Position numbers and translations under genes: made by a program | Source of the DNA: a virus | Reading direction: 5' to 3' (one strand) | Length of the DNA: 20,300 nucleotides | IMG/VR virus record: IMGVR_UViG_3300044955_000057 | Location: 1-20,300 of that record | The notes under the pieces: generated by a model | Databases searched by the model: none | Told to the model about the DNA's origin: nothing | What the model saw: only the letters and a program-made list of their open reading frames with translations | In this document: positions 2,921 through 15,982 of the stretch, piece by piece | Position numbering within the stretch: the stretch's first letter is position 1 | Layout of the letters: every line of letters starts with the position of its first letter

Positions 2921-3394
2921 TTATCGGACAAAATCAATCTTATACTGTTTACCTTCCATTGTAAACACTAAAGTTGAATGCGAATACACATTTTTTGGTT
3001 TTTCTTGGTAAGTCACTTCGTCAGTGCAAGATTTCTCTTTGCGGTAACCTACGATCACGTTCTCTGTGTGTCCACGGCTACCTTTATCTGCACCGATGAT
3101 GCCACCCATAATAGCACCAGCTGCTGCACCGTTATCTTTACCGGTGATTGCCTTACCAGCAGCACCACCAATGAGCATACCAAGTAGTGCACTGCCAGCA
3201 GCATTGTTGCCACCAACTTGACGCTGTTCGTACACTGGAACATCGATTAGCTCACAGCGTCGATCAATAACTTCTACAGTGTCGTAGATCGTAGTGTAAT
3301 GATCCTGTACGTTACCGTATACTTGTTCACCAGCCGTAGCAGCTGTTGTACTCATCAACGTTAGGATGATAGGTGTAAGAAAGATCTTCTTCAT
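2921..3394 (-). CDS. Exported glycine-zipper 2TM protein (157 aa)
   Basis: Residues 1-21 are a signal peptide (MKKIFLTPII...). Residues about 66-103 form two Gly/Ala-rich hydrophobic hairpins (ALLGMLIGGAAG and AAAGAIMGGIIGAD) separated by a polar turn, the glycine-zipper 2TM pattern also found in the rickettsial 17-kDa antigen and SlyB-like outer-membrane proteins. Flanking Cys residues (RRCELI, KSCTDE) could form a disulphide in the periplasm. The start with GGAG eight bases upstream is chosen over a longer reading because it gives the signal peptide. It overlaps the end of the preceding gene by 68 bases. It probably inserts in the host envelope; the purpose is unknown. Confidence 0.85.
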   Translation of the reverse strand: MKKIFLTPIILTLMSTTAATAGEQVYGNVQDHYTTIYDTVEVIDRRCELIDVPVYEQRQVGGNNAAGSALLGMLIGGAAGKAITGKDNGAAAGAIMGGIIGADKGSRGHTENVIVGYRKEKSCTDEVTYQEKPKNVYSHSTLVFTMEGKQYKIDFVR

Positions 3395-3560
3395 GTGGCA
3401 TCTCCAAGCCTGTTTCCGGTGTGCCCATAGTGCACGATTGGAAGTATTCATTCCAAAAATTATTTACCATATCTTCATGGGATATATCCTCGATACCTTT
3501 AAATCGAAACATCATCCAATCTACGATCTGGCCTGCATAGTCCTGTTCCATATCAGTCAT
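3327..3560 (-). CDS. Small acidic hypothetical protein (77 aa)
   Basis: I do not recognise this protein. The start MTDMEQ is preferred because its ATG overlaps the stop of the upstream gene as ATGA, with a GGAA site just upstream; another in-frame ATG lies four codons earlier. The protein is acidic and aromatic-rich (VNNFWNEYFQ, HEEDLSYTYH) with two Cys residues and no membrane segment. It is the second gene of the unit driven by P3, and its end overlaps the signal-peptide region of the glycine-zipper gene. Confidence 0.7.
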   Translation of the reverse strand: MTDMEQDYAGQIVDWMMFRFKGIEDISHEDMVNNFWNEYFQSCTMGTPETGLEMPHEEDLSYTYHPNVDEYNSCYGW

Positions 3561-3766
3561 GGTAGTTTCCATTCCATGTTCTTTTCCAAAGCATATTCTA
3601 CTGCTTGGAGATAGTCACGATCTTCCTCGTTTAACCGAGACCAAAACTTACGGACAGAATAGTATACGTCCATCACTTCTAACTTATTGGTAAGATGCGC
3701 ATTGGATTCCATCTCACGTTGAAGCCGATCCATCCGCTTCTTGATCTTATCATCGAGGTTCATCAT
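3557..3766 (-). CDS. Small helical hypothetical protein (69 aa)
   Basis: I do not recognise this protein. It is rich in charged residues and probably helical (DDKIKKRMDRLQREME), with an aromatic centre (VYYSVRKFWSRL). AGGAG lies three bases before the first ATG and six before the second, so translation may really start at the second Met (3763). It is the first gene after promoter P3 and is coupled by ATGA to the next. Confidence 0.72.
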   Translation of the reverse strand: MMNLDDKIKKRMDRLQREMESNAHLTNKLEVMDVYYSVRKFWSRLNEEDRDYLQAVEYALEKNMEWKLP

Positions 3767-3786
3767 AATCTCCTTTTGATAAGAGT

Positions 3787-3821
3787 ACTATAAGATATAG
3801 TTTAGTCTTTGTAAACCCCTA
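3787..3821 (-). promoter_or_regulatory. Promoter P3 (GGGG-TTTACA family)
   Basis: Minus strand: TAGGGG, -35 TTTACA (3810-3815), 17-base spacer, -10 TATAGT (3787-3792). The TAG (3819-3821) is also the stop codon of the last gene of the glycan island. A short inverted repeat ACTATA/TATAGT covers the -10 box. It drives the genes at 3557-3766 and 2921-3560 and probably the tRNA region beyond. Confidence 0.78.
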
Positions 3822-4412
3822 TTCCGTAATTATTTCAACATTTTCTGAAATTGTAAACTTAATGTTTTTGTGTGGATGGTGGATCTTGAATTGTACGTCC
3901 TTATGTTGTGCAAACATATTTGACCAGATGGGGCGCCAGTTGTTTGCAAGGCGATGGTTGTTCGTATCACCCCGATCAGAATTCAAGTAAAAATCAGTAC
4001 AGCTACGAAGGTTTGGACCAAACATAGAATCGAATCCATAAAGATGCACTTCGGATGCATCGATTTTATTCACGGCATAGTGTGTAGCCATATGGCCACA
4101 GTTAAAATCCGTATAGCCAGCGACATACTCCGGTAACTCAGTATAGAATTCTTTAATATGATTTGCCCACTTTAGACGTAAATTAGGATTCATTTCAAGA
4201 AATTTCTGAGGTCTGAATCCTAAGATCCATTGACCAGGCGGAAATACACTGCCTTCTGCCATCGCCCGCATCATCTTAAAGTCTACGATGCAAGTGGCGT
4301 ATGCATTTGGCACTTCAAACGGCGGAAGGTTACAAGTGATCTTAACCCCCTTTGCGGGTTTATACATCTGTGCATGATCACCATTTCCAATTACATGAAC
4401 TACTCTACCCAT
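3819..4412 (-). CDS. GT42/DUF115-like putative glycosyltransferase (197 aa)
   Basis: The N-terminal strand ends in VHVIGNGDH (residues 5-13), like the GNG.S nucleotide-binding turn of CstII-type sialyltransferases and DUF115/MptE-like proteins. Around residue 110, GHMATHYAVNK is followed by EVHLYGFDSMFG; these families have a similar helix followed by 'a.LiGfD'. The rest is diverged and I cannot prove the sugar donor. The start has AGGAAG about nine bases upstream and overlaps the preceding glycosyltransferase gene by eight bases. It is the last gene of the island and its stop codon is part of promoter P3. A conserved phage protein without transferase activity is the alternative. Confidence 0.6.
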   Translation of the reverse strand: MGRVVHVIGNGDHAQMYKPAKGVKITCNLPPFEVPNAYATCIVDFKMMRAMAEGSVFPPGQWILGFRPQKFLEMNPNLRLKWANHIKEFYTELPEYVAGYTDFNCGHMATHYAVNKIDASEVHLYGFDSMFGPNLRSCTDFYLNSDRGDTNNHRLANNWRPIWSNMFAQHKDVQFKIHHPHKNIKFTISENVEIITE

Positions 4413-5043
4413 TCATTAACTTCCTAATATGCTCTTTGCCCTTTTGACCAGTCCAATGATATACCAGCGGATTTTCTGGTACGGTGTTATCTATATGCTG
4501 AATACGAAGTACATTATAGCGGTTTGGTACGTCTTCGATGTACTGCAATCTTTTTAGTGGTGAATCCATAAGCTCATGTAATACTTCTTGATCACCGCGC
4601 AGCTTAGTCATTTGGCATTCAGCATTCCAGCGCTTTAAGATATCTGGCTGGCCCTCATATGCAACTACACCTGAGTTATGCCAGGTCTCGCCTTTGCGCA
4701 TCGTCCAAGGTTGATCTATAATCATAGACAATTTCTCGGGTTTGACATACGAAAATATATTAGAGATATCACCTACAACTTCACAGTCAACATCAATCCA
4801 GCAGACTTGTTCAGCGAATGCAGAAGCAATCATCATCGCCTTTGGCTTCTTAAACCAACCATTCAAATCACTCCGTACAGACTTACGGATGGACGGAAAA
4901 AGACTACTTTCCATACCGAAGTCCATGATCATCAATGGAATATCGTTATGCTTTTTAAATATTTCTACAAACCACGGAAGCATCCATTCGGTATGAGAGT
5001 CACATCCAGTAATGAATAGTTTAGATAATTTTGTACTTGTCAT
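4405..5043 (-). CDS. GT-A fold glycosyltransferase with DxD motif (212 aa)
   Basis: The core strand CWIDVDCEVV carries the metal-binding DxD (Asp84, Asp86). It is followed by NSGVVAYEG and DQEVLHEL, the order seen in GT8-like and related nucleotide-sugar transferases, and by HWTGQKGK near the C-terminus, like the terminal H.....K of GT8. It should transfer a sugar from a nucleotide donor; acceptor unknown. The gene overlaps the end of the GT25 gene upstream by 23 bases. No ribosome site lies at normal distance: AAGG is separated from the ATG by a 16-base palindrome plus seven bases, so folding may create the start site. Confidence 0.78.
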   Translation of the reverse strand: MTSTKLSKLFITGCDSHTEWMLPWFVEIFKKHNDIPLMIMDFGMESSLFPSIRKSVRSDLNGWFKKPKAMMIASAFAEQVCWIDVDCEVVGDISNIFSYVKPEKLSMIIDQPWTMRKGETWHNSGVVAYEGQPDILKRWNAECQMTKLRGDQEVLHELMDSPLKRLQYIEDVPNRYNVLRIQHIDNTVPENPLVYHWTGQKGKEHIRKLMNG

Positions 5044-5665
5044 TATAATTGTGCTTAGCTAAGCACCCTTCTGTTTTCTGGATAGTAGTGAATGTGTCAC
5101 GTGCCTCTACCGGCCAAGGGTAATACTCTTCCAGCCATGGGAATCTACCAAGATGTAAAAATACGTCAGTCGGCCCTGCGGCGATATAAGCGCGTTGAAT
5201 AAACTCTCTAGCACCAGCTGGTTTTAACATATAAGCGTGTGCACCAGGAAAGTATTGCTTCGACGTTAAGGGATTTACACCAAGCTTCATTGGTCTTTGA
5301 GCTTTACCATAGCTCGGTTTACCAATATTCATAGCTTTATCGAAGTTTGCAAATATGTTCACAGAGTCTACGAAGTATGCATCGTGCTCAAGAATCATAT
5401 AATTTGAATTATTCCTTACACAATTTTCCCACAAAGAGAAGTGTGACAGAAAGGCAGATACACAATTCTCGAATCGGGAGTATTTTTCCTCGAATCCTTT
5501 CACGGGGATATTCTTCTTACGGGCATACGAAATCGGATCTTTAGCTGGGGTAATAGCCGGAAACTTTTCTACCTCAATCCCATACTTTGCTGCTGACTTA
5601 ATACACCGATCTGCTGCTTTTACAGATTCTGGATTTTCCATAATTGTAATTACATATGCTTTCAT
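5021..5665 (-). CDS. GT25-family glycosyltransferase (214 aa)
   Basis: The opening MKAYVITIMENPES, the segment NCVSAFLSHFSLWENC (68-83) and ILEHDAYF (91-98) are hallmarks of the LPS/collagen glycosyltransferase family 25, where the E.D motif (Glu93, Asp95) binds metal and donor. Family members usually transfer galactose or glucose to LPS core or protein. The start overlaps the stop of the next-upstream GT25 gene as ATGA, so translation is coupled. It is a paralogue of that gene: the two share the N-terminal MKAY pattern and the SH..LW and ILEHDA motifs. Confidence 0.85.
   Translation of the reverse strand: MKAYVITIMENPESVKAADRCIKSAAKYGIEVEKFPAITPAKDPISYARKKNIPVKGFEEKYSRFENCVSAFLSHFSLWENCVRNNSNYMILEHDAYFVDSVNIFANFDKAMNIGKPSYGKAQRPMKLGVNPLTSKQYFPGAHAYMLKPAGAREFIQRAYIAAGPTDVFLHLGRFPWLEEYYPWPVEARDTFTTIQKTEGCLAKHNYNDKYKII
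5044..5070 (-). promoter_or_regulatory. Hairpin-bridged ribosome binding site
   Basis: On the minus strand AAGG (5067-5070) is followed by GTGCTTAGCTAAGCAC (5051-5066), a perfect palindrome that folds as a 6-bp stem with an AGCT loop, then AATTATA and the ATG at 5043. Linear spacing is 23 bases; with the hairpin folded out it is seven. T4 gene 25 is known to use mRNA folding in this way. The same bases encode the end of the upstream protein. Confidence 0.55.
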
Positions 5666-6357
5666 GATGATGTTGTAGAGGGTAAGCCCTGCACTCCTGT
5701 ATAATAAATTTTAGTTACGCCAAGTGTACGTACAAGTTGTCGACACATAATAGCATCATTTGGCCATAGTCCGTATTCAGTCACCAGATCCAACATCTTC
5801 TTAGCCCCGGATGGTTTCATTATATATGCCGAATTACCAGCGATGCCTTGTGGCACATATTCTTCGTCGATAACTGGCGGACGTTGGATTAGTGATTCTT
5901 TCTTTTGAACAGATTCATGGAACTGACGAGAACGACGTGTAGCACCACGAGGATCATTAATACCAATTATATCATACTTACTATCATCTGTAACCCACTC
6001 TGGTAGCTTTTGTTTCCAAACAGCATCATGTTCCAGAATAATAATTGCTTCGTTTTCTTTATAGCATTTTAACCATAGCTTATAATGTGATAGAGCACAG
6101 GCAATACGTGCATCATAATTCTTAGTAGGATATGGGGTTTTTAACAGTCCAGTCGCAATATCACGAACTGGTTTATCCCAAGGGTAATTCCAAATAAGAT
6201 TTAATACTGCCAATTGTCCTAAGCTTTCTTCAGCAGTAACAGCATCGTAACGTTGTATTTCGAAGTCGTTACCAACTACTTCCGAAGACTTAACCATAGT
6301 TTCATAGCCAAGTTCAGATACCTTATTGCCATTTATTACAATAGCGTATGCTTTCAT
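5662..6357 (-). CDS. GT25-family glycosyltransferase (231 aa)
   Basis: It has the family order MKAYAIVING at the start, ARIACALSHYKLW (83-95) and IIILEHDAVW (105-114) with the E.D pair at 109 and 111, then GNSAYIMKPSGAKKM, which matches the family's 'ayml...A..l' helix. It is longer than its neighbour because of an insert after residue 45. Start and stop are both coupled as ATGA to the sulfotransferase upstream and the second GT25 downstream. Expected role: addition of a hexose to a glycan or protein acceptor in the cytoplasm of the infected cell. Confidence 0.82.
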   Translation of the reverse strand: MKAYAIVINGNKVSELGYETMVKSSEVVGNDFEIQRYDAVTAEESLGQLAVLNLIWNYPWDKPVRDIATGLLKTPYPTKNYDARIACALSHYKLWLKCYKENEAIIILEHDAVWKQKLPEWVTDDSKYDIIGINDPRGATRRSRQFHESVQKKESLIQRPPVIDEEYVPQGIAGNSAYIMKPSGAKKMLDLVTEYGLWPNDAIMCRQLVRTLGVTKIYYTGVQGLPSTTSS

Positions 6358-6863
6358 TTCTTCAACTCATTCAAGTGGGGAAATTTGGTCATATCGGTCT
6401 TAACGCCTAAGAACTCTGCAAGTTTTTGTGGAGATTCGCCTCCAACGATATCTATAACCAACATACGATCGCCAAACCATGCACGTACATCTGCATCGTG
6501 TCGGTCCCAAGCTTTACTGGCTTGCTGTCGATTCGGGAATGGTGCACCGTATAGCATACGCCGTACGTTTACTTGTCCTTGTGATTGCTGCCATTGCTTC
6601 TTGCGTTCTAGATATGGCACAATGGAATCTAACCATTTCTCCTTGTCACGTACAGTGTACACAAACTTCGATCCCGGAAACTTTAGATCCAGCTCACGAA
6701 AGTTTAGCGCTACAGGAATATCTGTAGCGCCATCACTATTTGGATCCCATAGTTGCTGGTCATTGGGATAATGAATAGTTTGCCAGCCCCACTGGTTTAA
6801 TACGCTATTCAGTGTGGTTGTACCGGTACGGGATAGACCAATTCCAAATACTTTATATTTCAT
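6354..6863 (-). CDS. Sulfotransferase-family protein (169 aa)
   Basis: Residues 5-18 (VFGIGLSRTGTTTL) form the 5'-phosphosulfate-binding loop of PAPS-dependent sulfotransferases. FPGSKFVYTVRDKEKWLDS (62-80) is the 3'-phosphate motif with Arg72 and Ser80. It would move sulfate from PAPS to a sugar hydroxyl. It is short compared with many family members (about 250-300 aa) but keeps both cofactor motifs and the C-terminal FLGV segment. It overlaps the upstream methyltransferase gene by eleven bases, with only a weak AAGAGA site, so it probably depends on coupling. PAPS would come from the host. Confidence 0.85.
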   Translation of the reverse strand: MKYKVFGIGLSRTGTTTLNSVLNQWGWQTIHYPNDQQLWDPNSDGATDIPVALNFRELDLKFPGSKFVYTVRDKEKWLDSIVPYLERKKQWQQSQGQVNVRRMLYGAPFPNRQQASKAWDRHDADVRAWFGDRMLVIDIVGGESPQKLAEFLGVKTDMTKFPHLNELKK

Positions 6864-7440
6864 TTGTGTTTCTCTTAAATACTAAAACTGTTCCCCCGTG
6901 TTTTGCACCGTTTTTCATAATCTCCATTTCAAGATACATCCCATGGGATTTTGCCCATTCTTTGACCTCAGACTGTGTCGCACAAAGAGGGTCACTCCAA
7001 ATTGTTTTATTATTTTGACTGTCGCTCCATTCAATAAGTAATCGACCATCAAGAGTAAGTTGATCCCTCCAAACTTTAAGTGTTTCAATTGGCGTGATAG
7101 AATGATCTAATGCATTTGAATACACTATATCGAATTTACCAACCCAATCCGGATTGACCTTGTTAAAATCCCAGATAGTAGTCATTTCAGCTTTGGCAGC
7201 TTTTTCAGATAGTTCCGACCCCCAAACATAACATCCGAAATATTCTTTGAATAATTTCTGTTCTTCGCCAGATCTAGTACCATGACATAGAATAGACTTT
7301 ATATTTTTATTTTTCAGGGATTCGTAAATTGCTTGGGCTACATTTATCTGAATATAGACCAGTTTACCGTATTTCAGTTCAGTAGTTTCTTTTTGAGCTT
7401 TAATATACTCATCATAATTTTTATATTCGTATACTTTCAT
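6853..7440 (-). CDS. Class I SAM-dependent methyltransferase (195 aa)
   Basis: The Rossmann core starts at SILCHGTRSGEE (49-60), the SAM-binding strand and loop. GSELSEKA follows in place of the usual acidic ribose-binding strand, then FDIVYSNALDHS as the post-motif strand and LTLDGRLLIEW as the last core strand. This is the methyltransf_11-like order. The substrate is probably a sugar, given the sulfotransferase and glycosyltransferases around it. A weak GAAAG site lies upstream and a 24-base gap separates it from the preceding gene. Confidence 0.8.
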   Translation of the reverse strand: MKVYEYKNYDEYIKAQKETTELKYGKLVYIQINVAQAIYESLKNKNIKSILCHGTRSGEEQKLFKEYFGCYVWGSELSEKAAKAEMTTIWDFNKVNPDWVGKFDIVYSNALDHSITPIETLKVWRDQLTLDGRLLIEWSDSQNNKTIWSDPLCATQSEVKEWAKSHGMYLEMEIMKNGAKHGGTVLVFKRNTNEI

Positions 7441-7464
7441 AGTCTTTACTTTCGAGTATATTCT

Positions 7465-8283
7465 TTAAATGTCATAACCCCAATCCTTACGTGGTAGATT
7501 TACAATCTTCAGCAGTTGTTCTTCGGATAGATCATCTGCACCGGGAAACTGACAATGCACGAACTTAGTATCCTCATTACGCCAATCCATAATACGACGC
7601 TTCGGATTAATCTTATCCTTTGTACCATGAATATAGCTATTCCATCCGCCATCCATAATCTGTACGTCAAATCCTTTAGCAAACATCATTGCATGTAAGT
7701 AAGGTTGGTCACACGTATAAAAGCTATCGAGTCTTGCATTACGAATAAGCCTTACGTACTGGTCAAACTTAACAAAGTCACGCTGTGCTTTCTTACGACC
7801 GGCTGCAGAGTATAGAACCATTCCGGTGTTATAGACCTTAATCAAACCATCCTCTGTACGTGGCATAGGCACGCCGTAGGCAGCCTCTACAGTGTTTGCC
7901 CATAGATTATCTGCTTCAGACGTAATGCGTCCTAGCGTGATCGTACGTTGCTTTGGCTGGAACGGTTCTTCACAGATGCCGATCTCGCCCTGGAAAGCAT
8001 CGAAGATATTCTCTTCAAGACCATCGACTGCAAACACATCTGTATCTACGAATAGGATCTTTTCATACTGATCCCAATGTGAATCGAACAGTGGCTTGAA
8101 TGCACCATAGTGTGGTGAATAGTTACCAAAGTCCATGTTCATTCTTGTACGAAGCCACTGCGGATTATCTTCGAATCGATAATCTGCACCAATGCGCGCG
8201 GCATATGCTTTCATGTTATTTACGCCCGCGTGCACACTTGGGCGAACATTTCCATCCCAATATTGGTAGATTGCAGTTTTCAT
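7465..8283 (-). CDS. GT-A fold (GT8-like) glycosyltransferase (272 aa)
   Basis: The N-terminal IYQYWDG and MKAYAARIGADY form the first strand and helix shared with the transferases at 9905-10573 and 10573-11358. ILFVDTDVF (76-84) holds the DxD (Asp80, Asp82), and YNTGMVLYS and CDQPYLHAMM are the acceptor-side motifs seen in GT8. VHCQFPGADD near the end may supply the terminal His ligand. The start overlaps the upstream FkbM stop as TAATG. The donor sugar is unknown. Confidence 0.8.
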   Translation of the reverse strand: MKTAIYQYWDGNVRPSVHAGVNNMKAYAARIGADYRFEDNPQWLRTRMNMDFGNYSPHYGAFKPLFDSHWDQYEKILFVDTDVFAVDGLEENIFDAFQGEIGICEEPFQPKQRTITLGRITSEADNLWANTVEAAYGVPMPRTEDGLIKVYNTGMVLYSAAGRKKAQRDFVKFDQYVRLIRNARLDSFYTCDQPYLHAMMFAKGFDVQIMDGGWNSYIHGTKDKINPKRRIMDWRNEDTKFVHCQFPGADDLSEEQLLKIVNLPRKDWGYDI

Positions 8284-8957
8284 TATTCTCTCACAAATAT
8301 ATCGTCAATTACGATAGTATTGACTCGTTTATAGCCTAGGTCTTCTAAAAATTTTTGAGATTCTAAACTATGGGGTGAGCCTCTTTCTAACTGAATAACG
8401 GGAGAACATTTTTTAAGGGTTTCTTGCATACCGATTAGCGGTTCCATGTTATAACCTTCAGTATCAATTTTTATAAAATCAACATGATTGAAATTAAATG
8501 AATCAATGCTTCTACATTCGACCTGAATGGGCTTTTGCGCTACAAAAGTTTTTCTAAGGGGATTGTTCCAACGAGTATCGATTAGCTTCTGGGTAGCCTC
8601 CGATTGAACGACGTTTGACCCGGGGTTTTCAGGATTTATGTATATAGTAACTTCTCCTTCTTTATCCCCGATAGCAATATTACGAATAAAAATATTTTCG
8701 ATGTCTCGAGTATTATATTCCAGACATTCGTATAAAGCCGGAATTGGTTCGAAAGAAAATACTTGATCAAACAACTTAGAATATTGGATAGCTGATGTTC
8801 CAATGTGACCGCCGAAATCTAAACAAAGCCTTGTATTTTTAAATAGCTTTTGGCAGTATCGCCATTGACTTAGATCATGGTTAGCTGTGTCTGTAAAAAT
8901 AGCACCTGTTTGCTTCTGATAATCAGGAAATGCTATACCGTCTTTATTAAATATCAT
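8283..8957 (-). CDS. FkbM-family methyltransferase (224 aa)
   Basis: LDFGGHIGTSAIQYSK (46-61) is the SAM-binding motif, SFEPIPALYECLEYN (68-82) the second FkbM motif, and VDFIKIDTEGYNMEPL the signature post-core block of the family. FkbM enzymes O-methylate sugars or polyketides, and in phages they occur beside glycosyltransferases. AGGA lies eight bases before the ATG, giving it its own ribosome site after a fifteen-base gap from the epimerase gene. It is coupled to the downstream glycosyltransferase by TAATG. Confidence 0.9.
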   Translation of the reverse strand: MIFNKDGIAFPDYQKQTGAIFTDTANHDLSQWRYCQKLFKNTRLCLDFGGHIGTSAIQYSKLFDQVFSFEPIPALYECLEYNTRDIENIFIRNIAIGDKEGEVTIYINPENPGSNVVQSEATQKLIDTRWNNPLRKTFVAQKPIQVECRSIDSFNFNHVDFIKIDTEGYNMEPLIGMQETLKKCSPVIQLERGSPHSLESQKFLEDLGYKRVNTIVIDDIFVRE

Positions 8958-8972
8958 TCGGGTTTCCTATTT

Positions 8973-9908
8973 TTATGCATTGTATTTTTTATACCACTCC
9001 ACGAAGTTACGTACACCGTCAGCAATGTCAGTAGTAGAAGCGTAACCAAGCTTTTGAATTTTAGTGGTATCACTCCACGTTTCTTTAGCATCTGCTGGAT
9101 GAGGTGGCTGGAAGTCATATATTGCTTGTCCGTTACCTACGTTCTTTTCAATTTCCCGAATAAAGTCCATCAAATCTACTTGCTTACCGTTACCTAAACA
9201 GTACGTGTCACGTGGTGTCATATTATGTGACACTAACCAGATGCCTTGGACGATATCATCGACGTAAGTAAAGTCACGCTTCATGTTACCATTGTTATAA
9301 ACAGTAATTGGCTTACCTTCAATGATGTTCTTAGTGAATGTAAACAGTGCCATATCCGGACGACCATACGGTCCGTATACAGTAAAAAAGCGGAGACAAA
9401 CCGCATTCGGAATTTTTGATACGTGGAACTGATGTTCATTGGTTAATTTAGTATAGCCGTATGGACTTAACTGACGCCCGGGCTTTTCGACCTCATTCCA
9501 TGGTAGGGGATTGCCTTCCATTACACATGAAGTGGATGCATAAATTACATTTTCTATCCCGAGTGATTCACACGAGTTAATAACACACTGCGTTCCATGA
9601 ATATTGTTATCGATGTATTGGACAGGTTCGTCAAGAGATACGCGTACACCAGCGCTTGCAGCTAGGTGAATAACCAGGTCAGGTTTTGCTTCCATCATAT
9701 AGCTAGTCATATCCTTTGAACGAATATCTATGCGACCGACATTAACTCCCTCGTCCCAAAGTACCCCTGCGCGATATTCTTTTAGATCAGGATCATAATA
9801 CTCGTTAAAGTTATCTACACCCCATACATCCCAACCGTTTTGTTTATACTTAAGTGCAGTATGAAATCCAATAAATCCTGCAATGCCAGTAATAAATACC
9901 GTTTTCAT
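8973..9908 (-). CDS. NAD-dependent epimerase, UDP-glucuronate 4-epimerase-like (311 aa)
   Basis: GIAGFIG (8-14) is the NAD-binding G..G..G motif. The catalytic Tyr-x3-Lys is at 150-154 (YGYTK), with STSC just before the catalytic region. HLAASAGVR (81-89) and the block at 166-218 containing FFTVYGPYGRPDMALF and MKRDFTYVDDI are characteristic of UDP-glucuronate/galacturonate 4-epimerases (the WbnF/LspL group). Its length fits the family (310-340). It would interconvert UDP-GlcA and UDP-GalA, supplying a donor for the neighbouring transferases. ATGA overlap with the upstream gene, plus a GAGG site. UDP-glucose 4-epimerase activity is the alternative. Confidence 0.85.
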   Translation of the reverse strand: MKTVFITGIAGFIGFHTALKYKQNGWDVWGVDNFNEYYDPDLKEYRAGVLWDEGVNVGRIDIRSKDMTSYMMEAKPDLVIHLAASAGVRVSLDEPVQYIDNNIHGTQCVINSCESLGIENVIYASTSCVMEGNPLPWNEVEKPGRQLSPYGYTKLTNEHQFHVSKIPNAVCLRFFTVYGPYGRPDMALFTFTKNIIEGKPITVYNNGNMKRDFTYVDDIVQGIWLVSHNMTPRDTYCLGNGKQVDLMDFIREIEKNVGNGQAIYDFQPPHPADAKETWSDTTKIQKLGYASTTDIADGVRNFVEWYKKYNA

Positions 9909-10573
9909 ATCAATCCTCTTTCCACCAAAGCTTTGTAGTTCTCGATCTTGGGTCGCTTTAGTCCACCTTGTTTAATTTTCGTACGTATATGGACTATGTA
10001 TGAGTCTTCTACATCTTCCTCGAAGCTGCTTTTATTCCACATATCACGTGTTAAATAATTCTTAGGTTCGTTCTTAATACCAGCAAGAACCGCAAGACGA
10101 TGCATAATACCCTCGTCTTCATAGTTCCCACTAAACTGTGATACTTCATTATAACGAATATGCTTACGAAGTAACATCCTAATATTACGATCTAATCTAT
10201 AGATCGATCCACCCCAGTAAGCATAGTTTGGATCACCAAGTAGCGGGAACTTACGTGCAAGGTTACGCACAAGTGTTTCCTGAATGCCATAGTGACGACC
10301 GATACCAGTCTCGTCACGGAAGATATCTTTGTCGATGTTTTTACGTACGAACATATCCGGATCCATCATTACGACTGTATCATACTGGTCGAATTTTGGA
10401 TCTAGCATTACTAGTTTCTGGCATGGGCTTGTAAGACCTGGTCGAAACGCCGGACCATTAACCAGCATATGATCAGCGTCAAGAGACTTTGCGTAACCCA
10501 TAATGTTAGCAACAGATAAACGAGTAAGCTCGTTAATAGGACCTTCCCAATGTTGTAAGATAATGTTATTCAT
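9905..10573 (-). CDS. GT-A fold (GT8-like) glycosyltransferase (222 aa)
   Basis: It opens with IILQHWEG and IMGYAKSLDADH, matching its paralogues at 7465-8283 and 10573-11358. VVMMDPDMFV (67-76) carries the DxD (Asp71, Asp73). YAYWGGSIYRLD is the acceptor loop in the place of NTGM/NMGI in the others. The C-terminus has a basic KIKQGGLKRPK segment. It is coupled upstream by TAATG and downstream by ATGA, so it sits inside one tight translation unit with the epimerase. Confidence 0.78.
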   Translation of the reverse strand: MNNIILQHWEGPINELTRLSVANIMGYAKSLDADHMLVNGPAFRPGLTSPCQKLVMLDPKFDQYDTVVMMDPDMFVRKNIDKDIFRDETGIGRHYGIQETLVRNLARKFPLLGDPNYAYWGGSIYRLDRNIRMLLRKHIRYNEVSQFSGNYEDEGIMHRLAVLAGIKNEPKNYLTRDMWNKSSFEEDVEDSYIVHIRTKIKQGGLKRPKIENYKALVERGLI

Positions 10574-11358
10574 TAGATATTCATCATCAGCTCTTTTACA
10601 TTTTCCCCATGTGCAGGAAGCTTATCTTTTAAAAAGAAGTGGATAAAATGCGCTTGTTTAATATGATCATCCCGCACACCTTTATATAGTGCATTGAATC
10701 GCCAATCAAGATTCTTGACCTTCATCTTCGATTCTTTTACAAAGACATTTAGTAGCGTCTGATCGGTCGACCACTTCCATGCGCCCATACCATCGATGAA
10801 CGGCTTAAATCGCGGACGACGTAGGAACTGCAATGGGGTTTCACCGTCGAGGTAATCATTGAATGATTTGTTTAATACCATGATGCCCATGTTATAGAAG
10901 TTAGCACCACGATCATCCCATTCAAACAGTTTATTCAGTGGTGCCATACCATACTGCATACGTGAGTAGTTTGAGATCTTTGCCTTATATTGTGGCGTGA
11001 TCGGCATGTCTTTTTCTAGAACCCCACCAAAGCTATACTCAGAAGGTAACTCATCAAAGATAGATGGAGCACTGCTGCGAATATAACAGTCAGCATCGAT
11101 AATCGCCACTTGGTCGTACTCTCTAAGATAGGCGAACGCATTCTCCTTTTCGTAGATCGGTAGGAAACCGCCGTGTTTCTCATAGCTTTCTTTGCTCCTA
11201 TTTGTCATGAACACATCAGGCTTAATCATAAGAATAGGAGTACGCTGAACAACGTACTCCGCACCAATTCTTTTGGCATATTCTTTTACACTTGCTGTGC
11301 AATGGTCGTACAGCTTCGAGCGTTTACCCAGATAGACCTGATAGATTAACTTCTTCAT
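10573..11358 (-). CDS. GT-A fold (GT8-like) glycosyltransferase (261 aa)
   Basis: The N-terminus LIYQVYLG with VKEYAKRIGAEY matches the two related transferases downstream. QVAIIDADCYI (83-93) holds the DxD (Asp88, Asp90). NFYNMGIMVLN and STDQTLLNVFV follow as in GT8 enzymes, and HFIHFFLKDK near the end may be the C-terminal ligand motif. Start and stop both use TAATG overlaps. I infer nucleotide-sugar-dependent transfer; neither donor nor acceptor can be read. Confidence 0.78.
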   Translation of the reverse strand: MKKLIYQVYLGKRSKLYDHCTASVKEYAKRIGAEYVVQRTPILMIKPDVFMTNRSKESYEKHGGFLPIYEKENAFAYLREYDQVAIIDADCYIRSSAPSIFDELPSEYSFGGVLEKDMPITPQYKAKISNYSRMQYGMAPLNKLFEWDDRGANFYNMGIMVLNKSFNDYLDGETPLQFLRRPRFKPFIDGMGAWKWSTDQTLLNVFVKESKMKVKNLDWRFNALYKGVRDDHIKQAHFIHFFLKDKLPAHGENVKELMMNI

Positions 11359-11570
11359 TATACATTCCTTAAAATAGTCTCCGCAATCTCGATAGCCTCG
11401 TCAAATCCCTTACGGAATCGATTGCCGGGAGCACAGTACTCATAAAAGTATTTAATATTTTGGATAGTACCATGCTTGTGATGATCATCTAACTGAAAAT
11501 CTTTTACAAGATCTTCCCACTGACTACGTAGATTTAGGATTTCAAATACTGACATTTTAGCCAACGACAT
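11358..11570 (-). CDS. Small hypothetical protein within the glycan island (70 aa)
   Basis: I do not recognise this protein. The start MSLAKM is preferred because AAGGA lies about eleven bases upstream; an ATG four codons earlier (11582) has the same site directly against it. The protein is soluble and helical, with a central H-rich turn (DDHHKHG) and aromatic YFYEYC. It overlaps the HAD gene upstream and is joined to the glycosyltransferase downstream by TAATG, so it is expressed with the island. Confidence 0.68.
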   Translation of the reverse strand: MSLAKMSVFEILNLRSQWEDLVKDFQLDDHHKHGTIQNIKYFYEYCAPGNRFRKGFDEAIEIAETILRNV

Positions 11571-12129
11571 ATTGGTATACATCCTTCCAGTTTTTCATAA
11601 GAGGACAGGGACCGTCGTAGTCCATATTGAAACCGTGTTCCATGATAATGGCATCAAGACCCATATTATAACCAAGGTCTGCATTTTCTACCTTATCCTC
11701 AATCCATACATCATATGAGTTACGGTATGGTTCTAGTGCTTCGTGCTTATCTGCACCAGTATCGAGGAACACGAACTTCTCAAACACAGTAGAACCAAAC
11801 AACTTATTCAGGTTTGCGATACGAAGCTCTTGAGCAGTAGGCTCTAGGGATAGAGATGTGATAACGTGAAATACACAGCCGTGCTTACGGTGAAGCTTAT
11901 CAACGTAGTGCATAGCATCACGAAGAGGAGGTAAGAAACCGATAGCCGAGCTTTCGTTGAAGAACTTGACCAGTCGTTTCTTTTCTTCTGTTGGGATTCC
12001 ATAGCGATCCCCTACATCATAGTATTTGGAAGCATCCTGTACTTCGCCATATCCATGGCGTTGCATCCAAGTATTAAAAGCATACTCCCAGTTCAGAAGT
12101 ACACCATCACAGTCAGTCAAAATTCGCAT
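11557..12129 (-). CDS. HAD-superfamily hydrolase, 5'(3')-deoxyribonucleotidase-like (190 aa)
   Basis: The N-terminus MRILTDCDGVLLNW carries the HAD nucleophile motif DxDG. VFHVITSLS is the second motif with its Thr-Ser, and VWIEDKVENADLG contains the late acidic motif (ED) of the superfamily. The closest shape is the 5'(3')-deoxyribonucleotidase group often found in phages, which removes phosphate from nucleotides; a sugar-phosphate phosphatase is also possible next to a glycan island. The start two codons downstream of the first ATG is chosen because AAGGAG then lies nine bases away instead of three. It overlaps the upstream membrane-protein gene by 17 bases. Confidence 0.75.
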   Translation of the reverse strand: MRILTDCDGVLLNWEYAFNTWMQRHGYGEVQDASKYYDVGDRYGIPTEEKKRLVKFFNESSAIGFLPPLRDAMHYVDKLHRKHGCVFHVITSLSLEPTAQELRIANLNKLFGSTVFEKFVFLDTGADKHEALEPYRNSYDVWIEDKVENADLGYNMGLDAIIMEHGFNMDYDGPCPLMKNWKDVYQYVVG

Positions 12130-12460
12130 AGTCATTATCTCCTTTAATCACTGTCGATTGTACCTCAATTTCATATTGTTGTAAATATTTTTTACCATAC
12201 TTCCGAATATTTTTTCCGGTGTACCAGTACAACCAGCTATGCAAACAATGGTCTTTGTCCCAGAAAATTAGGAAGTCAATAAGCCAGACGAGATGAAATC
12301 GGTTTTGTTTCTTCCGGCTATAATTCCTAGCAGAAAATGTCTGATTTGACGGACCTCCCAGAATTACATTTATTAAGACAGATAGTGCAATACCAACTCG
12401 CTCAAGATACTGAAGTGTTTTCTTCAGTAAGAAGATCGTCGTCCTCTTCATATTCATCAT
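12113..12460 (-). CDS. Conserved phage small membrane-associated protein (115 aa)
   Basis: The N-terminus is basic and followed by a hydrophobic helix (VGIALSVLINVILGG). The block QTFSARNYSRKKQNR and then VWLIDFLIFWDKDHCLHSW look like a conserved motif that I recall from other T4-like phage and bacterial hypothetical proteins, with no known function. It may span or lie on the membrane. The start is uncertain: ATGs occur at 12460, 12457 and 12451, and only a weak GAGAG lies upstream. It overlaps the small gene before it by 59 bases. Confidence 0.7.
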   Translation of the reverse strand: MMNMKRTTIFLLKKTLQYLERVGIALSVLINVILGGPSNQTFSARNYSRKKQNRFHLVWLIDFLIFWDKDHCLHSWLYWYTGKNIRKYGKKYLQQYEIEVQSTVIKGDNDYANFD

Positions 12461-12599
12461 ATACTACTTCTCTCAAGAGAGCTTGGTGTTTTATTTTGCT
12501 ATCATCAACTTCGCGAATGCGGAAGTCTTTACCGAGAGAACGGGTTTTGTTACGACCGTTCTTTTTATTACGCGGATCAAAGCGTGTGTATTTGGCCAT
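12402..12599 (-). CDS. Small basic/acidic hypothetical protein (65 aa)
   Basis: I do not recognise this protein. The first half is strongly basic (NKKNGRNKTRSLGKD) and the second strongly acidic (DEYEEDDDLLTEE), a charge split that suits nucleic-acid or protein contact and little fixed structure. GGAAAGG precedes the ATG by about three bases. It follows the PhoH gene after an eleven-base gap and is probably translated from the same message. Confidence 0.7.
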   Translation of the reverse strand: MAKYTRFDPRNKKNGRNKTRSLGKDFRIREVDDSKIKHQALLREVVYDEYEEDDDLLTEENTSVS

Positions 12600-12610
12600 T
12601 TTACCTTTCC

Positions 12611-13300
12611 TTATTTAATGCCCAACATTTCTTTTGTCATGATATAGTCACGTACAAAATCTGAACGTACGATATCTTTCCAAGTGAATTCAACTACGTC
12701 GAATTGATTTAATTGTACCACAATATTCATGAACTGTAAAATACCTTTTTTATCATTGTCCTTCTGGAAGTCGGACTGATAGTAGTCACCACACATAACA
12801 AAGCGACACTGGTGACCAACGCGGGTGATAACAGAATCAAGTTCATGGAAGTTTAAGTTCTGCATCTCATCGACCAGGATGATTGCATTGTTAAATGTCG
12901 TACCACGAATAAACGACGTAGACTCGAAGCGCAACTTCTTAGCTGCAATCAGCTTATTCCATGCCTCACCATCACCAAGGATCTCTTTTAACAATCCAAT
13001 ATATGGTGCAGCATACGCTTGCTTTTTTTCTTCTTCGTCACCGGGTAGAAAACCAATGTCACGCGTAGGCACGATCGAGCGCACGATCACGAGCTCGTCA
13101 TACTCAGACTCGCGATCGAGTACCAACTCTAGTGCTAGACGTAATGCAAGAAAAGTCTTACCAGTACCAGCTGAACCAGATAGTACAAGATTGTAGCCAT
13201 CTTTCCAGGCTTCCCTTGCATTCATTTGATTTTGGGTTTTTGGTTCGAAGGGTTGTAGATTTTCTAGCTTAATGCTATTTGAGGTGTAAGACCTAGACAT
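12611..13300 (-). CDS. phoH: PhoH-like ATPase (229 aa)
   Basis: GSAGTGKT (42-49) is the Walker A loop and AIILVDEMQN (139-148) the Walker B strand. The segments VRSIVPTRDIGFLPGD and VMCGDYYQSD are typical of the PhoH family. Family members are P-loop ATPases, some linked to RNA handling or phosphate stress; phoH is one of the most frequent auxiliary genes in marine phages and its role there is unsettled. AAGGGG lies eleven bases upstream and the start overlaps the preceding gene by eight bases. There is no PIN domain, so it is the short phage form. Confidence 0.93.
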   Translation of the reverse strand: MSRSYTSNSIKLENLQPFEPKTQNQMNAREAWKDGYNLVLSGSAGTGKTFLALRLALELVLDRESEYDELVIVRSIVPTRDIGFLPGDEEEKKQAYAAPYIGLLKEILGDGEAWNKLIAAKKLRFESTSFIRGTTFNNAIILVDEMQNLNFHELDSVITRVGHQCRFVMCGDYYQSDFQKDNDKKGILQFMNIVVQLNQFDVVEFTWKDIVRSDFVRDYIMTKEMLGIK

Positions 13301-13529
13301 TAATACTGTTGCCCCTTCCAGAACCTTGTTTAATTCTTTTTTGTAGATCCTTGAACCCGTCTGGTACTTTTAGATCGTTGTTCCCCATTCGGCTGCTTAC
13401 GATCTTCGGTGCTTTTAGTACGTGTTTTACGTCGGGTTGTTCGTTTAGGATTGTCTGTAGTTCGTCCCAGGAGCACGTCACGTCGTAGTGCTCTCCGCTC
13501 TTGAGATCCTTCAGAGTGTATACTGGCAT
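13293..13529 (-). CDS. Conserved phage protein, MPxY-type (78 aa)
   Basis: The protein opens MPVYTLKDLKSGEHYD and ends in a Gly-rich basic tail (GFKDLQKRIKQGSGRGNS). I recall similar small proteins starting MPxY in T4-like marine phages, where the function is unknown. This start is preferred over an ATG ten codons upstream because TGGAAA is about eight bases before it and relatives start there. It ends inside the PhoH start region. The long basic reading at 13330-13818 overlaps it in another frame. Confidence 0.75.
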   Translation of the reverse strand: MPVYTLKDLKSGEHYDVTCSWDELQTILNEQPDVKHVLKAPKIVSSRMGNNDLKVPDGFKDLQKRIKQGSGRGNSINV

Positions 13530-13818
13530 ATGTGTGTTTCCATTTAGACCATTGTTCATTCACGTTATACATGTGCATGTTGTTCCATTGTTTCGATAGT
13601 CCGGACCAACATTGTATATATCGTTTGCCGTTTTCAGTTTCAACCAGTCGTAGGTGCGTACCATTGTCGCCAAACTTGATCTCTTCGAGCGTCTTAAAGC
13701 TCGCTTGCGAGAAAAGTAGATCCTGGTCTCCAGCCGTCGCACGCTTTGGCTTGGATGTAGTTCTCGATCGCTTCGTCTTGTTCTCTGACGTAGGCGAAGA
13801 TTTCGTCTTCGAGCGCAT
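13330..13818 (-). CDS. Doubtful basic protein overlapping both neighbours (162 aa)
   Basis: Only about 135 bases in the middle (13560-13693) are free of other genes, and there the reading looks like real protein (THLRLVETENGKRYIQCWSG, WNNMHMYN). The N-terminal third overlaps the metallopeptidase gene and the C-terminal 65 residues overlap the MPxY gene; both ends are low-complexity Lys/Arg/Ser/Thr sequence, as shadow frames often are. A GGGAG site lies ten bases before the ATG at 13818. Either it is a true overprinted gene or the remains of a short gene that lost its start or stop. Confidence 0.42.
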   Translation of the reverse strand: MRSKTKSSPTSENKTKRSRTTSKPKRATAGDQDLLFSQASFKTLEEIKFGDNGTHLRLVETENGKRYIQCWSGLSKQWNNMHMYNVNEQWSKWKHTYASIHSEGSQERRALRRDVLLGRTTDNPKRTTRRKTRTKSTEDRKQPNGEQRSKSTRRVQGSTKKN

Positions 13819-14227
13819 GTGCTTCTATCTCCCAAGGTCTGTCGTCGTAGTCCACTTCTGTAGAAGTGAAGTGCTCGCTTCCAAATCCGACTCGGTAAGG
13901 ACCAGCCAGATAACGCATACGACGAGTAGCAAACTGGCACACATGAATGAGTTCATGACATAATACCTTTATTAGTTGACCATACGATTGTACACCAGAA
14001 TAGTTCAGCCGTATATCAAAAAGTTTAGGTGATCGTGAATCATCCTCGACGCACATATCACCCCAGATTGTTTTTTCTTTGTACAGATCTTTTTCGATCG
14101 TTATACAGATCTCTAGCGTGTTCTTCATACGCTTCGATACTAAACAATCCAGAGCATGGCTAACCGCACTCTGGATCATTTCTTTCTGTAGGTTGGAAAG
14201 AGGATAGCCTCTGATATCAACTAGCAT
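13694..14227 (-). CDS. Putative zinc metallopeptidase with HExxH (177 aa)
   Basis: HELIH (91-95) is a zinc-binding HExxH motif on a predicted helix (KVLCHELIHVCQ). About 40 residues later RPWEIEAHALE offers a glutamate as third ligand, a gluzincin-like spacing. Otherwise I see no named family; SprT-like or ImmA-like proteins are the nearest comparisons. The start MLVDIRGYPLSN follows GGAAG and overlaps the preceding gene by eleven bases. Several phages encode such small HExxH proteins with unknown targets. Confidence 0.72.
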   Translation of the reverse strand: MLVDIRGYPLSNLQKEMIQSAVSHALDCLVSKRMKNTLEICITIEKDLYKEKTIWGDMCVEDDSRSPKLFDIRLNYSGVQSYGQLIKVLCHELIHVCQFATRRMRYLAGPYRVGFGSEHFTSTEVDYDDRPWEIEAHALEDEIFAYVREQDEAIENYIQAKACDGWRPGSTFLASEL

Positions 14228-14423
14228 CTTTCTTCCAATTACGAATACGTTCGTTGGCTTTCTCCTGCTCCCATTCAGCAACCTTATCCCAGGAGCGAAC
14301 CATAGCCCATTCACCGGAGTTTGCCATGGACTTATGCATCCGCTTAGACTCTTCTTGGGTCAGACCAGATACATAGAAGTAGTCAGGATTATCACCAAAG
14401 TTCTTTGCTTCAACCGCCCACAT
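14217..14423 (-). CDS. Small hypothetical protein (68 aa)
   Basis: I do not recognise this protein. The ATG at 14423 overlaps the stop of the upstream gene as TAATG and has GGGAG eight bases before it; an ATG five codons earlier is less likely. The protein is Trp- and charge-rich, with YFYVSGLTQEESKRMH near the N-terminus and a helical tail (EWEQEKANERIRNWKK). It belongs to the coupled unit running from P4 to the metallopeptidase. Confidence 0.72.
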   Translation of the reverse strand: MWAVEAKNFGDNPDYFYVSGLTQEESKRMHKSMANSGEWAMVRSWDKVAEWEQEKANERIRNWKKDAS

Positions 14424-14716
14424 TATGCTTTCTCCCATGCAATATTATCTTTGTATACAATGCTTTCAGCACCATCATATTCGTCGATCTGAAACTCTGT
14501 TCCTACTGGCACCCAAACAATTCCTACATCACGTGCACCACCGGCGTAAAGTTCCAATTCGTCACACAATGCTTCAACTTCATCATACTTGCCATCCAAG
14601 AACAGCTGGTTAAAACGTGCATCCATACAGTTTACATCGTTCCAGGTTGACCAGCCAGCACCAAAGCCACGGCTTACTGCAACTGCTACTTTACAATCAC
14701 GTACGATCTTTTCCAT
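14423..14716 (-). CDS. Conserved-looking phage hypothetical protein (97 aa)
   Basis: No known domain is recognised. The protein mixes a Gly-rich segment (VSRGFGAGWSTWND) with two strands ending VGIVWVPVGTEF and an acidic EYDGAESI stretch, so it is probably a small globular alpha/beta protein. The start overlaps the stop upstream as TAATG, with AAGGAAG about eight bases away. It is the second gene of the unit driven by P4. Confidence 0.78.
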   Translation of the reverse strand: MEKIVRDCKVAVAVSRGFGAGWSTWNDVNCMDARFNQLFLDGKYDEVEALCDELELYAGGARDVGIVWVPVGTEFQIDEYDGAESIVYKDNIAWEKA

Positions 14717-15126
14717 TATGCTGCTTCCTTTTGAAATGCTTCTTTGTACAGGTTGCGGATCTTAATCCGATCTTCGTATCCAATCCCCTGATCCCAAAGA
14801 AAGTAATCGAAGTCTTGGTCGTGGGTATTGTAACCTACTTCATGACCTTCTGCAACCATAAGGTGACGAAGTGCATCGTGCCATTTGCACGAGACCAGAT
14901 CCATGACCTGACGAATTTTCCCGCGGAACTCAACCAAAGCTTTGGCTTCTGCTTCTTCCTGAGCTGCCATACTAGCTTCCAACTCTTCGCAGAGCATGTC
15001 CCAAATAACTTGCTTTGCTTTGTCGGTTTGGTTTTCCCATACATACATCCAGCCATCAATGGGACGATAGCCACGAGCATCTTTGTGCAGATCCGAGATA
15101 AGTTCGTTCGAGAAGGTGTAAGTCAT
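14716..15126 (-). CDS. Phage hypothetical protein (136 aa)
   Basis: I do not recognise a domain. The protein is acidic and mostly helical, with an Ala/Glu-rich helix (ASMAAQEEAEAKALVEF) and an aromatic C-terminal half (DFDYFLWDQGIGYEDRI). AGGAG lies eight bases before the ATG. It is the first gene after promoter P4 (15152-15187) and leads a coupled series of four genes that ends in the metallopeptidase. Confidence 0.8.
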   Translation of the reverse strand: MTYTFSNELISDLHKDARGYRPIDGWMYVWENQTDKAKQVIWDMLCEELEASMAAQEEAEAKALVEFRGKIRQVMDLVSCKWHDALRHLMVAEGHEVGYNTHDQDFDYFLWDQGIGYEDRIKIRNLYKEAFQKEAA

Positions 15127-15151
15127 CGGGTATCTCCTTGTTGATATAACT

Positions 15152-15187
15152 AATATAAGCTATTTCAAATCAAATGTAAACCCCCTA
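15152..15187 (-). promoter_or_regulatory. Promoter P4 (GGGG-TTTACA family)
   Basis: Minus strand: TAGGGGG, -35 TTTACA (15175-15180), 17-base spacer, -10 TATATT (15152-15157). The TAG (15185-15187) is the stop codon of the upstream gene, and a GAAAAAAA tract lies just before it. The spacer end TAGCT and the -10 match P1 exactly. It drives the gene at 14716-15126 and those after it. Confidence 0.82.
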
Positions 15188-15742
15188 TGCACACTTTTTT
15201 TCAAACCATTCTGGAATATCCCGCTTGGTCCAATCCATGGAGAAGCGATCTTGTTTGGTCTGATAGAATGCACGATAGGAACCAACCGGATCGTTGTAGT
15301 TGATACACTCTGGTGCAGCACCCATTGCAAGCTTAAACGGTGTAAGCGGACCAACAGGAATATTACGTGGAGGTGACATAAGGATCTCGCCAAGATCATC
15401 GAACGATTTGTGTGTCTTACCATAACGATACATAAACTCGTCATGCAGAGCTACAAAGTGTACGTAGTGCCAATTGTAGTTGTTGTTGGATTCCATAGTC
15501 CAGACAGTGCACGGATGGCCAACGTGTACTGCCTTATAGATAATATTATCGTGATGATCCAATTCCCAATGCTTAACCATAGTCTTACCAGACTTAGAAG
15601 GAATCTTAGTAAGCTTACCATCGAGCACACGATGTGCAGTCGATAGCATCTGTGCAGACTCTAGCACCATCTTTACGATATGTTTATCGCACTGGAGCTG
15701 TGCTGCTTTGACTGGATCTTTGTCAAGTATGAAGAGGTTCAT
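15185..15742 (-). CDS. Conserved T4-like phage protein, MNLFILDKDP-type (185 aa)
   Basis: The N-terminus (LDKDPVKAAQLQCDKHIVKM) with ESAQMLSTAHRV is a pattern I recall from many T4-like marine phages, where it has no firmly assigned role. Conserved His, Asp and Lys residues (CDKHIVK, STAHR) look catalytic or metal-binding, but I cannot assign a reaction. The leader carries one arm of a 10-bp inverted repeat (GGACGGGAT) about 10 bases before the ATG, in the place of a clear Shine-Dalgarno. Promoter P5 drives it and its stop codon is part of P4. Confidence 0.82.
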   Translation of the reverse strand: MNLFILDKDPVKAAQLQCDKHIVKMVLESAQMLSTAHRVLDGKLTKIPSKSGKTMVKHWELDHHDNIIYKAVHVGHPCTVWTMESNNNYNWHYVHFVALHDEFMYRYGKTHKSFDDLGEILMSPPRNIPVGPLTPFKLAMGAAPECINYNDPVGSYRAFYQTKQDRFSMDWTKRDIPEWFEKKCA

Positions 15743-15750
15743 GGTATATT

Positions 15751-15793
15751 ATCCCGTCCTAGTAATCTCTTTAATATTATACCAGGACGGGAT
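15751..15793. repeat. 10-bp inverted repeat bracketing the -10 box of P5
   Basis: ATCCCGTCCT (15751-15760) and AGGACGGGAT (15784-15793) are perfect reverse complements, 23 bases apart. The -10 box TATAAT lies between them, one arm falls in the promoter spacer and the other in the leader just before the start codon. The arrangement equals that at P2, although the arm sequences differ, so a site-specific repressor or a leader structure is possible. Confidence 0.55.
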
Positions 15794-15811
15794 TAGGCTG
15801 TAAACCCCTTA
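15776..15811 (-). promoter_or_regulatory. Promoter P5 (GGGG-TTTACA family)
   Basis: Minus strand: TAAGGGG, -35 TTTACA (15799-15804), 17-base spacer, -10 TATAAT (15776-15781), a near-consensus sigma-70 promoter. The TAA (15809-15811) is the stop codon of the small gene upstream. It drives the conserved gene at 15185-15742. Confidence 0.85.
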
Positions 15812-15982
15812 TGCTGCCTTTTCTAATGTTTCTTCGATTTCAGCTATGTGATCGTCTAGGTATGCCTTTTTTGTTAATACTTTGTGCATACGATCTGTTT
15901 TGCCCTGTTTTCTATATCGATCTGCGTACCAGCCTAGTTGTCTAGAATCTTTTTTTAAGCGCTCGATAGTTGCTGAAACCAT
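15809..15982 (-). CDS. Small helical hypothetical protein (57 aa)
   Basis: I do not recognise this protein. It is Lys/Arg-rich and helical (ERLKKDSRQLGWYADRYRK) with an acidic final helix (AEIEETLEKAA). The start MVSATIE is chosen because GGGAG lies nine bases upstream; an earlier ATG at 16015 would begin inside a terminator hairpin. That hairpin directly precedes the gene and there is no room for a promoter between them, so its expression must rely on readthrough or antitermination. Its stop codon is part of P5. Confidence 0.7.
   Translation of the reverse strand: MVSATIERLKKDSRQLGWYADRYRKQGKTDRMHKVLTKKAYLDDHIAEIEETLEKAA

Follow-up and report, generated by a model that had tools for sequence, protein, structure and literature searches.

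The window analysed here is the complete IMG/VR virus record IMGVR_UViG_3300044955_000057 (20.3 kb; 20,300 nt), which from its sequence is assigned to a marine T4-like phage, and it carries on its minus strand an island of 13 open reading frames (ORFs) at 3819-12135, most of them predicted glycan genes. We tentatively propose, at somewhat less than an even chance, that this cassette is a phage-encoded operon of soluble enzymes for stepwise glycan assembly, with the lipid A-core of the host as the acceptor. Early or midway through infection, the enzymes would extend host lipid A-core at the inner leaflet in the manner of lipooligosaccharide (LOS) synthesis, and the modified lipid A-core would be exported by the host's own machinery. 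The altered host surface would then stop competing phages and released progeny from binding to the doomed cell or its debris, while the variable centre of the cassette would give each phage a lineage-specific decoration.

All 13 ORFs were open and tightly packed. Ten of the 12 junctions overlapped and the remaining two had gaps of 24 and 15 nt, compared with 66 overlaps among 157 same-strand neighbours elsewhere in a complete relative (Fisher p 0.007). Eleven ORFs were assigned to glycan synthesis. Six encode glycosyltransferases (GTs) of the GT-A or GT25 type; the others encode a Maf/GT42-like protein, a UDP-glucuronate 4-epimerase-like enzyme, a sulfotransferase and two methyltransferases, one of the FkbM type and the other a weak match. 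The gene order was retained in the related loci L004, L005 and L006-L008 (at 94%, 84% and 67%, respectively, in the epimerase), and dN/dS against L004, the closest relative, was 0.03-0.20 for every tested cassette gene. Chance ORFs were excluded because of this synteny and these ratios, and the substitution pattern indicates that the cassette is under strong purifying selection for function. The dense island of overlapping glycan genes reported in the initial annotation was therefore real. Its 13 genes were all recovered, but its extent of 3819-12129 fell slightly short, as the last gene starts at 12135. In a viral scan, the families of the two end genes (named 3819 and 10573 after their window positions) were found in at least 572 and at least 549 confirmed stretches, respectively. 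The same annotation had regarded phage islands of such breadth as uncommon; this was wrong, since each end enzyme is encoded in more than 500 viral contigs and clusters of a related kind had been described from phage P-SSM2 (PMC3037559) and from pelagimyophages (PMC7029224).

The expression signals were examined as consensus matches. A sigma70-like promoter (TTTACA-17-TATATT) was predicted at 15152-15180 (-), identical in L005 and located in the last intergenic gap of more than 30 nt before the cassette, and another (TTTACA-17-TATAAT, TG extended -10) at 15776-15804 (-), whose -10 region is conserved in L004. Between 15126 and 3819 every intergenic gap was 30 nt or less, from which we infer a transcription unit. 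The T4-type late motif NATAAATA (PMC2984593) occurred within 80 nt of 14 of the 48 structural genes in G005, a complete relative with a 119-bp end repeat, versus 0 of 15 in its island region (structural genes versus the rest, p 0.001), and it was rarely found upstream of island genes across loci. On the minus (coding) strand of the window no late motif was found in 2926-16593 (13.7 kb), where 3.5 were expected and 3% of shuffles had none. The neighbours of the cassette were replication and nucleotide genes. Given the missing late motif and the sigma70-like promoters, the island looks early/middle-type, not late.

The enzymes themselves narrowed the possible acceptors. Just 7 of 553 cassette proteins had a membrane segment (one), the initiating lipid-carrier transferase PF02397 was found in none of 20 records (controls 10/14), and a simple hydropathy rule detected no protein with more than three transmembrane-like segments in the complete G005. 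The predicted proteins do not fit a Wzx/Wzy or ABC O-antigen/capsule route. Since the enzymes are soluble, with neither a flippase or polymerase nor a lipid-carrier transferase found, they should act on something accessible from the cytosol, i.e., inner-leaflet lipid A-core, protein or DNA. Permuted tmRNAs were present in G005 and in 12 of 18 cassette contigs and point to Gram-negative hosts; the model also matched in Melnitz, a phage with a betaproteobacterial host, so it is not alpha-specific. The folds of the cassette enzymes (GT8/LgtC-like, GT25 and GT42-like) are those of LOS outer-core enzymes. Thus, the host surface was favoured because of the expression class, the LOS-type enzyme kit and the Gram-negative hosts, and host lipid A-core was preferred over a virion protein because this toolkit comes in a unit of the early/middle type that has no T4 late promoters. 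The authors of the pelagimyophage study arrived at the same host-surface reading (PMC7029224). KdsA, KdsB and UDP-glucose dehydrogenase were also encoded by G005, in whose early region (90230-95828; L017:10230-15828) they stood together with cupin, thymidylate-synthase-like and asparagine-synthase-like genes, the dehydrogenase being recognised as UDP-glucose dehydrogenase-like. 3-Deoxy-D-manno-octulosonic acid (KDO) was considered as a general ingredient and rejected, KdsA being found in G005 and in 0 of the 17 other cassette contigs.

To describe the architecture, we used 60 non-redundant loci, each holding both the 3819 and 10573 families. The ends were fixed, with the GT-A enzyme 10573 at the 5' end and GT25, GT25, GT and the Maf/GT42-like enzyme at the 3' end, and between them lay 2-11 varying genes in 40 arrangements. 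The invariant 5' end gene (10573-11358, -) encodes a GT8/GT24/GT34-like GT-A glycosyltransferase. Its GT8 Pfam match was weak (0.0018, under the cut-off), and its predicted model (predicted local distance difference test, pLDDT, 90) showed a clear GT-A fold, matching UGGT at 5e-10 in Foldseek. Structural realignment (VIA) gave Z 16.1 to PBCV-1 A064R, a chlorovirus capsid glycosyltransferase, and 15.2 to UGGT, these two being tied, and 13.2 to LgtC. In 84,980 cellular genomes the family had 8 matches, all in metagenome bins, where bigger contigs carry further genes of the same phage group. A cellular origin or cellular homologues were rejected, as all eight were read as misbinned phage contigs, and the enzyme appears to be practically virus-only.

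The invariant 3' end gene (3819-4412, -; 60/60 set-defining loci) encodes a predicted Maf/GT42 (sialyltransferase)-like, DUF115-like protein. It had no Pfam match, and Foldseek alone found no significant match to its model in the PDB. When the AlphaFold model (pLDDT 92) was realigned by VIA, Z was 11.6 to Maf 5mu5 (163 aligned, 3.4 A) and 10.7 to the GT42 enzyme CstII 1ro7 (171 aligned, 3.8 A). The ten best VIA entries were Maf and GT42-type sialyltransferases (9.9-10.7), GT29 came at about 8 (8.2), and unrelated folds were mostly below. The viral structure library returned phage proteins (1.8e-13) and a mimivirid DUF115 protein (1.9e-3). GNG, CGH and GFD motifs were invariant in the family. 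By its model the protein has the sialyltransferase/Maf fold, and the initial GT42/DUF115-like assignment was right at the level of fold. Modelled folds of this kind, GT-A or Maf/GT42, give no information on the acceptor when they are shared. In sequence searches of the PDB, the profiles of 3819, 10573 and 4405 found no useful match.

Three further genes complete the 3' end. The near-constant gene 4405-5043 (-; 41/60 loci, with another GT, u19, as a substitute in some loci) encodes a glycosyltransferase with an invariant DxD (WIDxDCE), and in profile comparison it shared the DxD segment alone with the 10573 family. It was only 57% identical to L004 14231-14842 while the neighbouring genes were about 90% identical, which suggests an allele replacement through recombination. 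Two GT25 glycosyltransferases, b (5021-5665, -; PF01755 3.5e-11, 56/60 loci) and a (5662-6357, -; PF01755 7e-15, 51/60 loci), both exceeded the Pfam cut-off and had the EHD motif, with EHDA invariant. A GT25 domain was also found in a 641-aa GT25 + GT_PLOD + 2-oxoglutarate (2OG)-Fe(II) protein of G005 (57533-59458; L015:17533-19458, +), which has the architecture of lysyl hydroxylase/glycosyltransferases. Its gene sits between tail-fibre and neck genes, with a late-promoter motif 68 nt upstream. The 28-57 kb region of G005 (L014, L015) contains two accessory islands near the tail fibres, with radical SAM proteins, a 2OG oxygenase, a NodU-like carbamoyltransferase and a flavin-halogenase-like protein. 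Glycosylation of collagen by GT25 was rejected, since no GT25-GT_PLOD-2OG protein was found outside G005 and the collagen-like ORF of the window starting at 896 was unmatched in L004-L008.

The variable centre encodes accessory GTs and tailoring enzymes. Two GT-A glycosyltransferases (7465-8283, -, LFVDTDVF; 9905-10573, -, MMDPDMF) matched the 10573 family in hhalign at 98.4% and 94.6%, respectively, the latter over the nucleotide-binding half. The sulfotransferase (6354-6863, -; PF17784, Sulfotransfer_4, 2.1e-22; PDB sulfotransferases at 1e-8) had GLSRTGTTTL, resembling the loop that binds 3'-phosphoadenosine-5'-phosphosulfate (PAPS), and VRDKEKWLDS, and thus showed both the family match and the 5'-PSB/3'-PB segments of a PAPS sulfotransferase. 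An FkbM-type methyltransferase (8283-8957, -; PF05050 1.8e-18, phrog_8156 5e-29) was accompanied by a probable second methyltransferase (6853-7440, -; Methyltransf_31 E 0.029, below the cut-off). The UDP-glucuronate 4-epimerase-like SDR enzyme (8973-9908, -; Pfam Epimerase 3.4e-48) had as its closest matches 5u4q and a characterised enzyme of Bacillus cereus, BcUGAepi 6zl6 (1.4e-44). When aligned to BcUGAepi, the catalytic Tyr and the residues that bind the carboxylate were retained: Thr126, Ser127, Tyr149, Thr178 and Arg185 were kept (the last three as Y150, T176 and R183) and Ser128 was replaced by Cys, not by the Glu of decarboxylases (residue roles: PMC7984243, PMC12338863). Its nearest annotated relative (51%) is in phage C48C1 (OQ984149), where it overlaps UDP-glucose dehydrogenase by one base. 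The dehydrogenase family, which would supply UDP-glucuronate, was found in 10 of 18 cassette contigs and is not visible in the 20-kb window. The methylated, sulfated, uronate-containing glycan suggested in the initial annotation is thus a fair reading of the product, given the retained motifs and residues and the co-encoded dehydrogenase in C48C1.

Of the 60 loci, 57 had one or more of the clusters interpreted as methyltransferases and 25 had a sulfotransferase. Other centre genes in sister loci encoded UDP-galactopyranose mutase, pyruvyltransferase, nucleotidyl- and cytidylyltransferases, HAD phosphatase, PfkB kinase and a RuBisCO-like protein. Close relatives differ by gains or losses of single cassette genes. 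For example, the methyltransferase 6853-7440 was missing from L004 and L005, where the junction between GT7465 and the sulfotransferase was intact, and L005 had an additional sulfotransferase between 10573 and 9905. The RuBisCO-like family (u13) occurred in nine loci (e.g., L072, L073, L086, L089, L093-L096); its member at L075:5057-6145 (+) lay in the variable centre next to a nucleotidyltransferase. The RuBisCO-like protein matched PF00016 (3.4e-24) and PDB RuBisCO (6e-25), with KPK and KxDE kept and a catalytic His apparently lost. In L084 and L098 an HAD phosphatase and a PfkB kinase occupied its place.

Several observations weigh against host lipid A-core as the acceptor. The fixed GTs are conserved over hundreds of phages and essentially virus-only, which a conserved phage acceptor would fit too. 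The best structural match of 10573 (less than one Z unit ahead of UGGT and so taken as a tie) is an enzyme that glycosylates a chlorovirus capsid; Maf, the best match of 3819, glycosylates a protein; and KdsA occurred in just 1 of 18 relatives. Moreover, the missing late promoters are still compatible with modification of the virion. A possible but doubtful alternative is therefore virion glycosylation, in which the fixed enzymes make a core glycan on a conserved capsid or fibre protein and the enzymes of the variable centre add the decorations; chloroviruses and glycosylated mycobacteriophage virions offer parallels. It is favoured by the conserved virus-only end enzymes, by the A064R and Maf matches and by the soluble, cytosolic nature of the enzymes; chloroviruses have a common conserved glycan core made in the cytoplasm by virus enzymes (PMC7826918). 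However, the cassette is not close to structural genes and lacks late promoters, unlike those genes or the GT25-GT_PLOD-2OG gene of G005, and a common GT-A fold does not reveal the acceptor. About as doubtful is a virus-only 'serotype locus', whose fixed end GTs would build a conserved stem on the virion or on a universal lipid A-core acceptor, while the swappable centre would individualise the surface glycan and the RuBisCO-like protein would make an unusual sugar in some lineages. If true, phages would have in it their own equivalent of O-antigen loci and of chlorovirus capsid glycans.

Another acceptor reachable from the cytosol, such as a surface protein of the host or the phage (the phage collagen-like protein 896-1489, pilin, flagellin), a small molecule or a lipid, seems unlikely. 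Maf enzymes glycosylate flagellin, which together with the fold match of 3819 speaks for it, and genes for secreted collagen-like and Gly-zipper proteins lie directly downstream of the cassette. However, the collagen-like ORF had no match in L004-L008 even though the cassette is conserved there, and no direct link was seen. The initial annotation had named virion proteins, modified DNA bases and the host surface as candidate targets; virion and host surface both stand, whereas DNA is disfavoured. Hypermodification of DNA, with sugars put on hydroxymethylated bases, would be very improbable. A thymidylate-synthase-family protein, a possible hydroxymethylase, was indeed found in G005 and in 6 of 18 cassette contigs, but it was found neither in the complete C48C1, which holds part of the cassette, nor in G006, a 177-kb and possibly partial contig in which no terminal overlap was found. 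No sulfotransferase or GT25 enzyme is known to act on DNA. Furthermore, there was no evidence for hydroxymethylcytosine or glycosylated DNA in cyanomyoviruses (PMC2984593). That the genes have no function and are stuffer or host DNA in decay, an idea once raised for the cyanophage lipopolysaccharide (LPS) clusters of the P-SSM2 type (PMC3037559), is hardly credible: judged from the low dN/dS against L004 in every tested gene, the 13 open ORFs and the conservation in hundreds of contigs, it is refuted for the phage lineage of the window.

The cassette belongs to a known kind of cluster, as a variant of the marine-myovirus "LPS gene cluster". Its backbone is T4-like: the window RNaseH was 44% identical to that of Methylophilales phage Melnitz (Kyanoviridae), and PhoH (12611-13300, -; PF02562 8e-44), the upstream anchor of the locus, ribonucleotide reductase (RNR) and seven tRNAs were also encoded. 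Several GTs and sugar-nucleotide enzymes thus stand beside phoH and tRNAs, as do the cyanophage LPS clusters, which were called 'functional or stuffer DNA' (PMC3037559). Also near the cassette were a conserved 74-aa ORF (11358-11582, -; putative, in 110 loci retrieved) and an HAD/NT5C-like nucleotidase (11557-12135, -; phrog_420), which are the two island ORFs not read as glycan genes, and a Gly-zipper protein with a signal peptide (2921-3451, -), conserved beside it in 66 loci. The collagen-like protein (896-1489, -) had GXY repeats, a signal peptide and a C-terminal end resembling a beta-barrel. A DUF805 membrane protein lay amid the tRNAs (1691-2032, -), and a GIY-YIG/NUMOD3 homing endonuclease adjoined the RNR large subunit on the opposite strand (19748-20251, +).

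Among known systems, the 'LPS' cluster of Prochlorococcus phage P-SSM2, also a T4-like marine phage, has overlapping genes for GTs, epimerases of NDP-sugars and a methyltransferase of the FkbM family. In its region 193428-205500 (near hli03; one of two clusters) the families shared with the cassette were those of the epimerase and the methyltransferase, GT25b matched marginally, and the fixed end genes were not found. Mosig EXVC030M, a cultured Pelagibacter phage of the Kyanoviridae, has overlapping genes near RNR (124832-130666) for a GT8, a u19-family GT, a u1-family sulfotransferase and two FkbM methyltransferases; the u19, u1 and FkbM proteins matched the cassette gene pool, whereas no recognisable 10573 or 3819 homologue, nor an epimerase, was present in the examined stretch. 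In C48C1, homologues of HAD, u19 GT, GT7465-like protein and 3819 lay in one region together with a carbamoyltransferase, and the epimerase lay elsewhere; tblastn found no GT10573 or GT25b homologue. Pelagimyophages are rich in GT8, and an O-chain change against coinfection was proposed for them; their GT8/LPS genes lie mostly in the tail-fibre region (host recognition cluster) or form small sets of two to three genes, while the cassette has fixed ends and stands beside phoH (PMC7029224). Chlorovirus PBCV-1 likewise has virus-encoded cytosolic GTs, a conserved core with variable decoration and a methyltransferase, and its A064R fold matches GT10573. However, it is a eukaryotic virus with an N-glycan on its capsid protein. 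No description of this exact cassette was found in the literature searched. As far as that literature shows, what is new is the cassette itself with its fixed ends and swappable centre, how widely it occurs, a GT set specific to viruses, an end enzyme of the Maf/GT42-like type, the evidence for selection, and the tie to cultured Mosig.

The question of whether the glycan clusters in marine myoviruses have a function, and what they would decorate, dates back to P-SSM2 (PMC3037559). As the cassette shares genes with Mosig, which is in culture with Pelagibacter HTCC1062, the question is directly testable. With hundreds of uncultured relatives carrying it, the cassette would represent a widespread but scarcely studied means by which phages vary a sugar on a surface, probably that of the host envelope or of the virion.

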